Origin: an uncultured Alphaproteobacteria bacterium
GTDB lineage: Bacteria > Pseudomonadota > Alphaproteobacteria > HIMB59 > GCA-002718135
DNA length: 64,000 nt
Assembly: GCA_902620285.1 (NCBI GenBank)
Contig: CACNHT010000001.1
Span: forward strand, 45,599 to 109,598
Direction: 5' to 3'
Positions 48,359 through 54,287 of the stretch are shown here, piece by piece; the first letter of the stretch is position 1; each line of letters begins with the position of its first letter. The translations under genes were made by a program, and so were the position numbers. The notes below the pieces were generated by a model, which saw nothing but the letters and a program-made list of their open reading frames with translations, did not search any database and was not told the origin of the DNA.

Positions 48359-48745
48359 TCAGATCTTCTTTCCTTTGGTCTTAATTAATACAAAAAACAA
48401 GCCAATTATTAGTAATATAAAAGGAAAACTCCAAAGAAAGATATTATTATAATTCATTAATGGTCTAAAAAGGATGTATTCACCATATCTTTCAACTAAA
48501 AATTTCTTAATATCTCCTTCACTTTCTCCTTCTTGCAACTTTTGTTTTACTATTTTTTTAATATCATTAGAGAATTCTGCATCAGAGTCGTAAATACTTT
48601 GATTTTGACAAGTCATGCATCGTAACTCTAAGGTTAATTTTTTTACTCTCTCATTGATATTTTCAGCTGAATGTATTTTAAAAGTAAAAAACACAAAACC
48701 TAAAATTATTATATATAAAACTTTAAAGAAGCGGCTCAATTTCAT
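48359..48745 (-). CDS. ccmH: Cytochrome c-type biogenesis protein CcmH (N-terminal/CycL type)
   Basis: LRCMTCQNQSIYDSDAEFSNDIKKIVKQKLQEGESEGDIKKFLVERYGEYILFRP. Confidence 0.96.
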   Translation of the reverse strand: MKLSRFFKVLYIIILGFVFFTFKIHSAENINERVKKLTLELRCMTCQNQSIYDSDAEFSNDIKKIVKQKLQEGESEGDIKKFLVERYGEYILFRPLMNYNNIFLWSFPFILLIIGLFFVLIKTKGKKI

Positions 48746-49247
48746 TTTCTAAAATATGCTTAGTAATAGGACCCATATATTTGTAGATAATCATACCATC
48801 CTCATTAATTAAATATGTTTCTGGCAGACCAAAAACACCAAATTCTAAAGCAATTAATCCATCAGAGTCTACGCCAACAAAATGATATGGATTTCCATCA
48901 TCTTCTAAATACTTTTTTGCATCTGAAGTTGGATCTTTGTGGTTAAATCCCAACAAATATAGTTCAGGATGTTTTTTACGTATTTCAAAAAAAAGTGGAT
49001 GTTCTATTTTACAAGGACTACACCAAGAAGCAAAAAAATTAATTAAGGTCTTTTTATTTTTTATATCTTTTGTTTTGATTTTATCCTTTGCGTTGTAAAG
49101 AGAACTACTTTCAAAAATAGGAACATCTTTATTTAAGAGCGCACTTGGTGGTTTACTTGGATCTTTACCACTTAATAAATAAACAAGTGAAAAAAGACAT
49201 ATTATTAAAAGTGTAATCAATGGTGTTAAAATAAATATTCTATTCAT
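48723..49247 (-). CDS. ccmG: Thiol:disulfide interchange protein CcmG/DsbE
   Basis: LINFFASWCSPCKIEHPLFFEI; FGVFGLPETYLINEDGMIIYKYMGPI. Confidence 0.94.
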   Translation of the reverse strand: MNRIFILTPLITLLIICLFSLVYLLSGKDPSKPPSALLNKDVPIFESSSLYNAKDKIKTKDIKNKKTLINFFASWCSPCKIEHPLFFEIRKKHPELYLLGFNHKDPTSDAKKYLEDDGNPYHFVGVDSDGLIALEFGVFGLPETYLINEDGMIIYKYMGPITKHILENEIEPLL

Positions 49248-51106
49248 CTTCTAGAAACTGCTATAAAACCTGAATACATCATTATTATCACTCCAAACCA
49301 TATAAAACTAACAAAAGGATTAATTAAAACTTTTACAAACCATTCATTATTTTTTTGATCACCGAGGATAAAATATATATCCTTATTCCATTGATGTAAA
49401 ATCCCAGCTTCAGACGTAATCATTTTAGAAACAGGATAATAATTTTTTCCAACTTCTATTTCTTTTAATTTATTTTTTTCAATATCAAACAAAAATTTTC
49501 CTCTTAAGGCTTGGAAATTAATCTGATTAGTTGTTTCTATTTTTTCAAACAAAACTGTTTTTCCATTTACTTTAAACTTATCTCCCTCAATAAGGTTAAA
49601 ATCTAGCTCGTTTTGAAAAACACTAGAACAAGTGATACCAACTATAGCAATACCAACCCCAATATGCGCTATATGAGGATTAATTATTTGGATAAACTTA
49701 ATAGAAAATTTAACTTTGTACGAAGAAAAGATAGCAATAATTGAGGCTAATATTATCCAAAAACCTAGAAGTAGTCCAACAAAGCCCCATGTATTAAAAT
49801 CTAAAAAATATGATTGAATTAAAACTAAAATACTTAATACGATAAACCCTAGTACATATTTTTTTGAATTTTGTATTTTATTCGTTTGCCAGGATAAAAT
49901 TGGTGCAATGCTCATTAATAAAAAACCAGGGATCATTATAGGAATTACAGTTGCATTAAAATAAGGGCCTCCAACTGATATTCTCTTATTATATAAAACC
50001 TCAATTATAATTGGGTATATGGTTCCTAAAAGAATAGTTAAGGTTGCTATAATCATTAAAATATTATTTATTACAAGTGCTGAAACCTTATTGATAAATA
50101 ACAAGTTTAAAGCGATTGATTTTTTTGGTTCTTTTAACAAGAAAACTAAAAAACCAAATCCAGTTATAATAAAAAAAATTAGTAATATAAATATGCCTCT
50201 GGATGCATCTGCAGCAAATGAATGTACACTTGTTAAGATTCCAGATCTTACTAAAAATGTTCCAAAAACACTTAATGAAAAGCATAGAATTGATAAAAAA
50301 ACTATCCACTTTTTAATAGCTTGCTCACCTCTTACCATCATGAGAGAATGGACTAATGCAAGTCCTGCAATCCAAGGCATCAGTGAAATATTTTCGACTG
50401 GATCCCAAAACCACCAACCGCCCCATCCTAATTCATAATATGCCCAATAAGAACCTAGAGCTATTCCACCAGTTAAAAAGGTCCAACTAATCAATGACCA
50501 TTTTTTTGCAACATAAAGCCATTCACCATCTGTATTTTGAAATAAACCTGCAATAGCAATACTGAATACTATAGAATAGCCAACGTAACCTGCATATAAA
50601 ATTGGTGGATGAACCGCCAAACCTGGATCTTGTAAAATTGGATTTAAACCCAAACCTTCATTTACTAAAATTGAATTAACTAGAAACGGATTTGATGTAA
50701 AGACGATAAAGAGACCAAATAAAATATGAAGAAAAGATTGAATAATTAATGTTAATCTTTGAAAATTTCTGTCTATATTTTTTGTAAAAGAAAAAAAGAA
50801 ACTAAAAACAGATAATATACATAGCCACAAAAGCATCGAACCTTCATGATTCCCCCAAGTACCTGAAATTTTATATATTAATGGTTTATTTGAGTGAGAG
50901 TTTTGAAATACATTATAATTAGAGAAATCAGACACCACGTAAGCATACATTAGTGAAAAAAAAGATAATAAAGTTAATAATGACGAAAAACGAATGAAAA
51001 AATTAAATTTCTGTTTTTGAAACTTAAAAATGTATCTAGATAAAATTAAATAAAAATTAATACCTATGGCAAAAACTAAACTTAAAAAACCAATTAATGA
51101 ACTCAT
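49244..51106 (-). CDS. ccmF: Cytochrome c heme lyase CcmF
   Basis: KISGTWGNHEGSMLLWLCIL; WGGWWFWDPVENISLMPWIAGLALVHS. Confidence 0.97.
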   Translation of the reverse strand: MSSLIGFLSLVFAIGINFYLILSRYIFKFQKQKFNFFIRFSSLLTLLSFFSLMYAYVVSDFSNYNVFQNSHSNKPLIYKISGTWGNHEGSMLLWLCILSVFSFFFSFTKNIDRNFQRLTLIIQSFLHILFGLFIVFTSNPFLVNSILVNEGLGLNPILQDPGLAVHPPILYAGYVGYSIVFSIAIAGLFQNTDGEWLYVAKKWSLISWTFLTGGIALGSYWAYYELGWGGWWFWDPVENISLMPWIAGLALVHSLMMVRGEQAIKKWIVFLSILCFSLSVFGTFLVRSGILTSVHSFAADASRGIFILLIFFIITGFGFLVFLLKEPKKSIALNLLFINKVSALVINNILMIIATLTILLGTIYPIIIEVLYNKRISVGGPYFNATVIPIMIPGFLLMSIAPILSWQTNKIQNSKKYVLGFIVLSILVLIQSYFLDFNTWGFVGLLLGFWIILASIIAIFSSYKVKFSIKFIQIINPHIAHIGVGIAIVGITCSSVFQNELDFNLIEGDKFKVNGKTVLFEKIETTNQINFQALRGKFLFDIEKNKLKEIEVGKNYYPVSKMITSEAGILHQWNKDIYFILGDQKNNEWFVKVLINPFVSFIWFGVIIMMYSGFIAVSRR

Positions 51107-51543
51107 TTATATTTTTTATTCCAATAACCCGTATCTTTTAAACTTTCTTTTATTGATGCAGGCATATAATTTTCATCATGTTTTGCAAAAACATTTGTTG
51201 CATTAAAAACATCATTATTATCAAAAGATCCTTCTATGACTGCCCCTTGCCCTTCTCTAAACAAATCAGGAAGAATTCCATTATAAGAAACAAGTATCGA
51301 TGCCTTCTGATCTGTAATTCTAAAATTAAATGAACTTGATGAAATTTTATTGAAGCTGTCATTTTCTACAAAACCACCTATTCTAACTAATTTATTTATT
51401 GTGATATCTGACTTAATAATTTCAGAAGGCGTATAAAAATATGAAATATTTTCTCTGGTATTATATAAAATTAATAACACAGCGCTTAGTATTATGATTA
51501 AAGTAAGAATTATGAGGAGTAATCTTTGAAAACGCAGACTCAT
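51103..51543 (-). CDS. ccmE: Heme chaperone CcmE
   Basis: FYTPSEI; VRIGGFVENDSF; PDLFREGQGAVIEGSFD; FAKHDENYMP (heme-binding HxxxY). Confidence 0.95.
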   Translation of the reverse strand: MSLRFQRLLLIILTLIIILSAVLLILYNTRENISYFYTPSEIIKSDITINKLVRIGGFVENDSFNKISSSSFNFRITDQKASILVSYNGILPDLFREGQGAVIEGSFDNNDVFNATNVFAKHDENYMPASIKESLKDTGYWNKKYK

Positions 51544-51705: not shown

Positions 51706-52404
51706 TTAACTTAAGTTAGATTTCCTTATAATTATCTCAGTTTTTATTCTTAAAATAGCTATAGTTATTCCAATCATCATAAATGCAATTGTCATAATAA
51801 TTAACGGCGTCATCATGGAAGGATCGATACTAGGTTTTGATAACTTACTTATGGTTGCGGTTTGATGTAAAGTGTTCCACCAATCCACAGAGAATTTAAC
51901 AATAGGTAGATTGATAGAGCCAACAAGCACAAATATTGCAACAACTTTTTCTCTGACAATTCTATTTTCAAAAGATAAATTCATAAAGATTATTATAAGA
52001 TAAATTACAAAAAGTATTGCTACAGAAGTTAAACGCGCATCCCACACCCACCAAGTTCCCCACATTGGTTTTCCCCATAGAGAACCACTTATTATACAAA
52101 TTAATGTAAAAACTGCTCCTATTGGAGCTATTGCTGAATTAATAATAAACCCAAAAGGTATTCTAAAAGCAAGTGCAGCAATACTATATAAAGTCATTAT
52201 TGCATAAGTTAGAAGTGCTAACCAAGCACTTGGAACGTGTACATACATTATCCGAACAGTTGATCCTTGTTGATAATCATTAGGTGAAAAATAAAAGGAA
52301 AATAACAATCCTAAAAAAAATAATACTATTGATGAAACTAATGCTGGTTTAAACAAATAATCAGCAACCTGATTAAATTTATTGGGATTAATTAAAAACA
52401 TCAT
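51706..52404 (-). CDS. ccmC: Heme exporter membrane protein CcmC
   Basis: RIMYVHVPSAWLALLTY; GSLWGKPMWGTWWVWDARLTS; SVDWWNTLHQTATI. Confidence 0.97.
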   Translation of the reverse strand: MMFLINPNKFNQVADYLFKPALVSSIVLFFLGLLFSFYFSPNDYQQGSTVRIMYVHVPSAWLALLTYAIMTLYSIAALAFRIPFGFIINSAIAPIGAVFTLICIISGSLWGKPMWGTWWVWDARLTSVAILFVIYLIIIFMNLSFENRIVREKVVAIFVLVGSINLPIVKFSVDWWNTLHQTATISKLSKPSIDPSMMTPLIIMTIAFMMIGITIAILRIKTEIIIRKSNLS

Positions 52405-52405
52405 A

Positions 52406-53078
52406 TTAATTATTTTCTAATGATAGTTTAAGACACAAACCACTTGCCCATGGATTTAAAGCAAAAACTATTAATAATATTCCAGATAATATATTTATTA
52501 GAGAATTAAAGTTTTCATCTATATTAATTATTCCAACTGAAAAAATAATTACTGGTATGCTGAATATCATAACTATAACACTTCCAAGCAAGAAGTTTCT
52601 TTGATTCATTAAATTCATTGACGATGAAATTGAGCCTAAGCATGATAGAATTAATGATCCTATAGCAAAACTAGTTAAAAGGTAGATAAGTTTTTCATTT
52701 GAAATATTTAGCAAAATACAAGCTATTGGAATGGATAGTAAAAAAGGTATCTGAACAAAGATAAAATGTGATACAGTTTTTAAAATAGAAATTAAACCAA
52801 AACTGAAACCGTTTAAATGCATAATTAATAAATTACCATTTTCAAAGTCTTCCTGATAAAATTTTCCTAGAGATAAAGTTGAGCTTAACAATAATAATGT
52901 CCATATTATTCCAACCCCTATAAGTGAAATTGTTTCCTTTTCTGGTCCAATAGAGAAAATAAATATAAATATTGATATGAAAAAAAAAATGATATTTGTT
53001 AAAATATCTTGAAATCCACTTAGGTTTAATTTGTATTCTCTATAATAAAAGAAAATTATTTTTTTTTAAAAAATTCAT
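52406..53078 (-). CDS. ccmB: Heme exporter membrane protein CcmB, apparently interrupted by a 1-nt poly-A frameshift near its start
   Basis: In-frame coding extends well upstream of the ORF-track start (52891): ..IIFFYYREYKLNLSGFQDILTNIIFFFISIFIFIFSIGPEKETISLIGVGIIWTLLLLSSTLSLGKFYQEDFENGNL. The ATG at 53078 (9-10 nt after the ccmA stop) is out of frame by one nt at an A9 run (53059-53067). Confidence 0.85.
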
Positions 53079-53082
53079 TGTT

Positions 53083-53688
53083 TTATAAGTTAATTTCTTC
53101 TGTCACATAAATGCCTGGATTTTGATGAGAACTAAAAATTATAGAGCCTTCCTTAGCACAATGATCTTCAAAAGTTTGTTTCATTAATTCAATTGAATCT
53201 TCATCTAAATTTGAAAAAGGCTCATCTAAAATCCAAACCTTTTTATCTTCTATAATTAATCTTAAAAATTCTAATTTTTTGGTTTCTCCTAGAGACAAAG
53301 TTCCAACTTTTTGATTTACTTGGTTTTCTAATTTTAAGGTTTTTAGTGCAGTTTCAATTTGAGGATTATTAATATTTGATACAAAACATCTTCTCCAAAT
53401 ATATATGTTATCTTTGATTGTTAATTTTTTTAAGCTTGATGTTTTATCAGCTATATAAGTAACATGATTATAGAAATCATATAGATTATTCTTTAATACT
53501 TTCCCTTTCCAATAAATTGATCCAGTAGATGGTTCAATTATATTTATTATTGTTTTTAGTAATGTTGTTTTACCAGAACCATTTTTCCCTTTTAATATAG
53601 TGATGTTCCCAGACGAAAGAGATAGATTAATATTTTCGAATATTTTTTTATCTAATCTTTCTACTGATAAATCCTTACCAATTATCAT
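53083..53688 (-). CDS. ccmA: Heme exporter ATP-binding protein CcmA
   Basis: ITILKGKNGSGKTTLLKTI; TLSLGETKKLEFLRLIIEDKKVWILDEPFSNLD. Confidence 0.95.
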   Translation of the reverse strand: MIIGKDLSVERLDKKIFENINLSLSSGNITILKGKNGSGKTTLLKTIINIIEPSTGSIYWKGKVLKNNLYDFYNHVTYIADKTSSLKKLTIKDNIYIWRRCFVSNINNPQIETALKTLKLENQVNQKVGTLSLGETKKLEFLRLIIEDKKVWILDEPFSNLDEDSIELMKQTFEDHCAKEGSIIFSSHQNPGIYVTEEINL

Positions 53689-53817: not shown

Positions 53818-53994
53818 CTATCTTCTCTTTTTCTTCTTTTTAGCAGCTTTTTTCTTTTTCTTTTTAGGAGCTGCTTTTTTCTTTTTCTTAGGAGCAGCTT
53901 TTTTCTTTTTCTTTTTAGGAGCTGCTTTTTTCTTTTTCTTAGGAGCTGCTTTCTTTTTCTTCTTTGGAGCAGCTTTCTTTTTCTTCTTAGCCAT
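53818..53994 (-). CDS. 58-aa lysine/alanine/proline repeat protein, histone H1-like
   Basis: MAKKKKKAAPKKKKKAAPKKKKKAAPKKKKKKAAPKKKKKAAPKKKKKKAAKKKKKRR*; AAGGAG RBS 6 nt upstream of the ATG; strong terminator downstream. Confidence 0.75.
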   Translation of the reverse strand: MAKKKKKAAPKKKKKAAPKKKKKAAPKKKKKKAAPKKKKKAAPKKKKKKAAKKKKKRR

Positions 53995-54287
53995 AAAATA
54001 CTCCTTGTATTTTGTTACCCCGGAGGAACCTCCCTCCATTATCACTTTCATGATAATTATAAAAGGCTAGGCATTTATTCCCAAAACTTACGGTTAAAGT
54101 CAACAATATACCAATATATTAAAATTATCTGATCTAGATTTAAATTATAATAAATAAAATTTATAAAAAAAGTTTACGAACTTACTTTTATATTTTTTGG
54201 CTGAAAACATATAATAAATAAACATTTTACTATACAAAAATTTATCTTCATACTATTTAATTATTATAATTATTAATCATTTTTAGC

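Follow-up and report, generated by a model that had tools for sequence, protein, structure and literature searches.

The haem-exporter gene ccmB in a 64,000-nucleotide stretch of DNA from an uncultured marine alphaproteobacterium of SAR11 type (the window) is, as assembled, put out of frame by a run of nine adenines shortly behind its start codon. This break is most likely an ordinary one-base homopolymer indel that calls for no new mechanism, and the ccmB of the living cell is most likely intact. The extra A was probably introduced when the whole genome of a single cell was amplified, sequenced or assembled.

The ccmB frame is broken at an A9 run

The start region contains the following features:

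53076..53078, minus strand: ccmB start codon ATG, aligned with the in-frame ATG of same-genus homologues
53059..53067, minus strand: A9 run, the site of the frame break, one A longer than the longest in-frame run (A8) of relatives
52409..53065, minus strand: open CcmB frame without a start, 219 codons, matching Pfam PF03379 at 2.5e-34
52406..52891, minus strand: 161-amino-acid ORF from a TTG, the first conventional start in the CcmB frame and probably not the true start of the gene

The ATG at 53078 adjoins the stop codon of ccmA, and from there the minus strand reads ATG AAT TTT TTA AAA AAA AAT AAT TTT CTT TTA TTA TAG. With A9, as assembled, this frame has 12 codons, encoding MNFLKKNNFLLL, before a stop codon. 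In the CcmB frame, a TAA at the T/A junction closes the 5' side; the stretch from 53065 to 52409 is open, and its first ATG, GTG or TTG is the TTG at 52891. A complete CcmB ORF with an in-frame start is absent from the assembled sequence, which bears on the intactness of the gene and not on its homology.

We examined a series of run lengths. Only A8 and A11 connect the ATG to the CcmB frame, yielding products of 223 amino acids (MNFLKKIIFFYYREYKLNLSGFQ...) and 224 amino acids (MNFLKKKIIFFYYREYK...), respectively; A10 gives MNFLKKK and a stop. The assembled run is therefore either one A too long or two too short. A first-pass annotation of this DNA had placed the frame break at the A9 run right after the ATG at 53078, which our analysis bears out. 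It had taken MNFLKKK followed by TAA to be the assembled reading, which is instead the A10 version, and had proposed that one extra A would restore CcmB, whereas one fewer or two more are needed. Its doubts about the TTG start at 52891 were well placed, given that homologues and E. coli CcmB extend 58 to 62 residues further; the cost of starting there, put earlier at about 55 residues, is 58 residues of the open frame and 62 of the expected protein. Inside ccmB, at window positions 52980-52989, there is also a T10 run (coding strand) that is in frame and is longer than the A9 that breaks the start.

ccmB lies in an otherwise intact ccm operon

Its sequence marks ccmB as an ordinary gene for the haem exporter CcmB, with a product that would belong to the CcmABCD haem-export complex. 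The open frame matches the Pfam CcmB family (PF03379) with 118 bits against a curated cut-off of 24.9, over positions 6-213 of 215, and it aligns nearly end to end with the solved E. coli CcmB (query 18-216 on chain 18-219 of 7f02_B). This is the single CcmB match in the genome (1.38 Mb in 54 contigs, 80% complete). The likeness to E. coli CcmB (PF03379; 7f02 chain B) thus extends over nearly the whole length of the sequence and to the operon context, and the difference is that the start codon in the window is one base out of frame as assembled. The family match, the E. coli match and the operon all uphold the earlier identification of the gene as ccmB.

The other genes of the operon are:

53083..53688, minus strand: ccmA, intact by ORF and homologue comparison
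51706..52404, minus strand: ccmC, intact by ORF and homologue comparison
51103..51543, minus strand: ccmE, intact by ORF and homologue comparison
49244..51106, minus strand: ccmF, intact by ORF and homologue comparison
48723..49247, minus strand: ccmG, intact by ORF and homologue comparison
48359..48745, minus strand: ccmH, intact by ORF

ccmB sits between ccmA and ccmC in the order ccmA-B-C-E-F-G-H, and its neighbours are all open, in agreement with the first description of the rest of the operon. Against the nearest relatives, the remainder of ccmB has a dN of 0.05-0.07 and a dS of 0.69-1.06, a low ratio that indicates purifying selection. We found no further decay of ccmB: there is no second break in the gene, 219 codons are open and the operon is intact. 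We rejected a pseudogene formed by decay, there being neither extra disabling changes nor relaxed selection. Directly upstream of the operon, at window positions 53818-54051 on the minus strand, is a gene for a 77-amino-acid protein rich in Lys, Ala and Pro, with KKKKKAAP repeats.

Related genomes start ccmB in frame

We read the start regions in all 80 of the 102 genus genomes with a ccmB match, the window's own included. One homologue, cut by a contig end (L008), was left out of the start count, leaving 78 of 79 homologues testable. All 78 have an in-frame ATG, GTG or TTG no more than 10 codons upstream, and the window is the sole exception. The break is therefore a true departure, beyond chance. 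The commonest form of the start among relatives is ATG..TTAAATAAAATAATT, or more fully ATGAATTTTTTAAATAAAATAATT, and in most of them the run is broken by a T (A3-T-A4). An uninterrupted, in-frame A8 occurs in 14 relatives, 57 of the 78 have no A run longer than four at the site, and A9 is found among the same-genus homologues in the window only. In this comparison with relatives, which had been proposed at the outset, every testable genome thus has a start upstream of the TTG position.

A technical indel is the probable origin

Almost all of the named relatives are single-cell assemblies (isolate names in AG- and AH-), from which we infer that the window's genome is one as well. In a benchmark of the GORG-Tropics single-cell workflow, indels occurred at 3.0 per 100 kb (PMC11247762). 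To estimate how frequent such breaks are here, we compared 753 kb of the window's genome with 800 kb of a relative (G078), covering 424 orthologues and 137,300 aligned residues. The coding DNA so compared amounts to approximately 412 kb, and apart from ccmB no frameshift of the window's genome was detected in it. One indel over this length is below the benchmark rate, so biology is not needed to explain it. That the break occurs in a single genome, within a conserved gene and at a homopolymer, likewise fits an amplification or assembly error. Residual indels of single-cell assemblies (PMC11247762) resemble it in being isolated one-base changes in a conserved gene that is otherwise intact.

The survey also produced candidates that we discarded. 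The first round gave two, a stretch upstream of the start of a tsaD-like gene and an ORF that does not look like a gene. A wider round gave seven in the window's genome, ccmB and six others; five of the six precede the codon at which the gene concerned truly starts, and the sixth is a stop four residues short of the end of the relative's gene, so that none of the six is a frameshift within a gene.

We also compared the ccm loci of named related genomes, 53 in all, in which ccmB, ccmC, ccmE, ccmF and ccmG are intact except at contig ends. These loci contain one other frameshift, an extra A in the ccmA of AG-912-N10 (L097:396-680, contig CACIBE010000015.1), which has GGAAAAAAC where GGAAAAAC is expected (A5 to A6). 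The insertion lies inside the ATP-binding motif (Walker A), approximately 525 bases from the contig end. This independent indel shows that such events do happen in assemblies of this kind.

Two observations count against a technical origin. The ccmB site lies midway along a contig of 205 kb, away from its edges. Furthermore, the 723 gene models of the window's genome (753 kb) contain 170 coding A/T runs of at least nine (142 A9, 10 A10, 2 A11 and 16 T9), and where an orthologue could be compared no other frameshift was found, which implies that the assembly is not generally poor at such runs. The same count shows that a run of A9 is in itself ordinary in this genome.

On the simplest path, a T-to-A change would first have joined A3 and A4, converting AAATAAAA to A8, and a single A would then have been inserted during amplification, sequencing or assembly to give A9. 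A T-to-A variant of APC that creates an A8 run (PMC5009743) is alike in that the substitution makes a long, slip-prone A run; it differs in affecting a human tumour gene, for which slippage in both replication and transcription is discussed. A homopolymer error, previously listed as the third of three alternatives, is thus the best explanation and a probable one.

Recent mutation, slippage and other readings

The A9 could instead be a genuine and recent product of replication slippage from A8, in a cell or strain lacking MutS and MutL, with selection expected to purge the broken ccmB. We found mutS in none of the 102 genus genomes, some of them more than 90% complete (controls positive in 11 of 14), and no match to mutL above the cut-off in the same 102; the sub-threshold MutL matches were short pieces of other proteins, most likely sharing the same ATPase fold. 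Loss of both genes is published for SAR11 subclades (PMC12374537). In a genus without mutS and mutL, A/T runs should slip often in replication, and the window's A9 exceeds the A8 of 14 relatives by exactly one base, so that a private mutation is a reasonable second choice. However, the genes for cytochrome c maturation (ccm) are retained throughout the genus, which implies that living cells should seldom carry a null allele; the approximately 412 kb compared contained just this one break, and the rest of ccmB is free of decay. We regard a recent mutation as possible but doubtful.

Slippage by RNA polymerase, the leading reading of the first-pass annotation, would have a true A9 allele tolerated because some transcripts carry A8 (or A11), as with frameshifted genes in Buchnera and Blochmannia, endosymbionts of insects. 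Loss of one base in the RNA would open the entire ccmB frame, and the downstream frame is undecayed and under purifying selection. There is precedent in Blochmannia vafer, in which eight genes carry frameshifts in poly-A/T tracts and those tested show no accelerated evolution; in Blochmannia and Buchnera, slippage of RNA polymerase is thought or has been shown to correct frameshifts at poly-A runs (PMC3017870). The likeness to these cases lies in an AT-rich genome, an indel in a poly-A run of nine and a gene otherwise intact, whereas the ccmB break is found in one genome and is unconserved. An out-of-frame run occurs in none of the 78 testable relatives, so the slippery site is not conserved, and the event required is deletion of one A or gain of two, since slippage to A10 leads to an immediate stop. 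For the RNA polymerase of E. coli, which is not the SAR11 enzyme, rescue by deletion was undetectable on the poly(A) runs tested, perhaps shorter than A9, and reached 10% on T8 (PMC6260861). Slippage as the source of CcmB is therefore unsupported and unlikely. A literature search on homopolymer frameshifts in Pelagibacter found nothing on point.

Ribosomal +1 frameshifting, or non-standard initiation at ATA or ATT just past the run, could also supply a nearly full-length CcmB. The lysine tRNA in the P site could pair anew with the A run, and ATA and ATT codons do occur where the open frame begins; however, the site is unconserved, relatives begin ccmB at a standard start and a -1 shift at the run would hit a stop, making this very improbable. 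Contingency loci typically carry runs just after the start codon, and a run of nine close behind the ATG might suggest phase variation of ccmB through changes in run length, as had also been proposed. This is contradicted by the 78 of 78 relatives that are in frame, in most of which a T interrupts the run, and by the housekeeping function of CcmB, and it merits hardly any credence. That the TTG at 52891, as the first conventional start of the open frame, is the true start of a short CcmB has next to no probability, given the loss of 58 residues from a frame that matches 7f02_B nearly end to end and the upstream start in all testable relatives.

Implications

As assembled, the sequence would lead gene callers to place a false TTG start 58 to 62 residues late or to miss CcmB altogether. 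It is improbable that a streamlined, free-living marine bacterium without mismatch repair tolerates an out-of-frame A9 in an essential gene through poly-A slippage that supplies CcmB, which would extend a phenomenon of endosymbionts to a group of bacteria that ranks among the most abundant in the ocean. Were the A9 nonetheless a true and tolerated allele, one would have to ask whether slippage by the polymerase buffers SAR11-type bacteria, which lack mutS and mutL, against homopolymer mutations.
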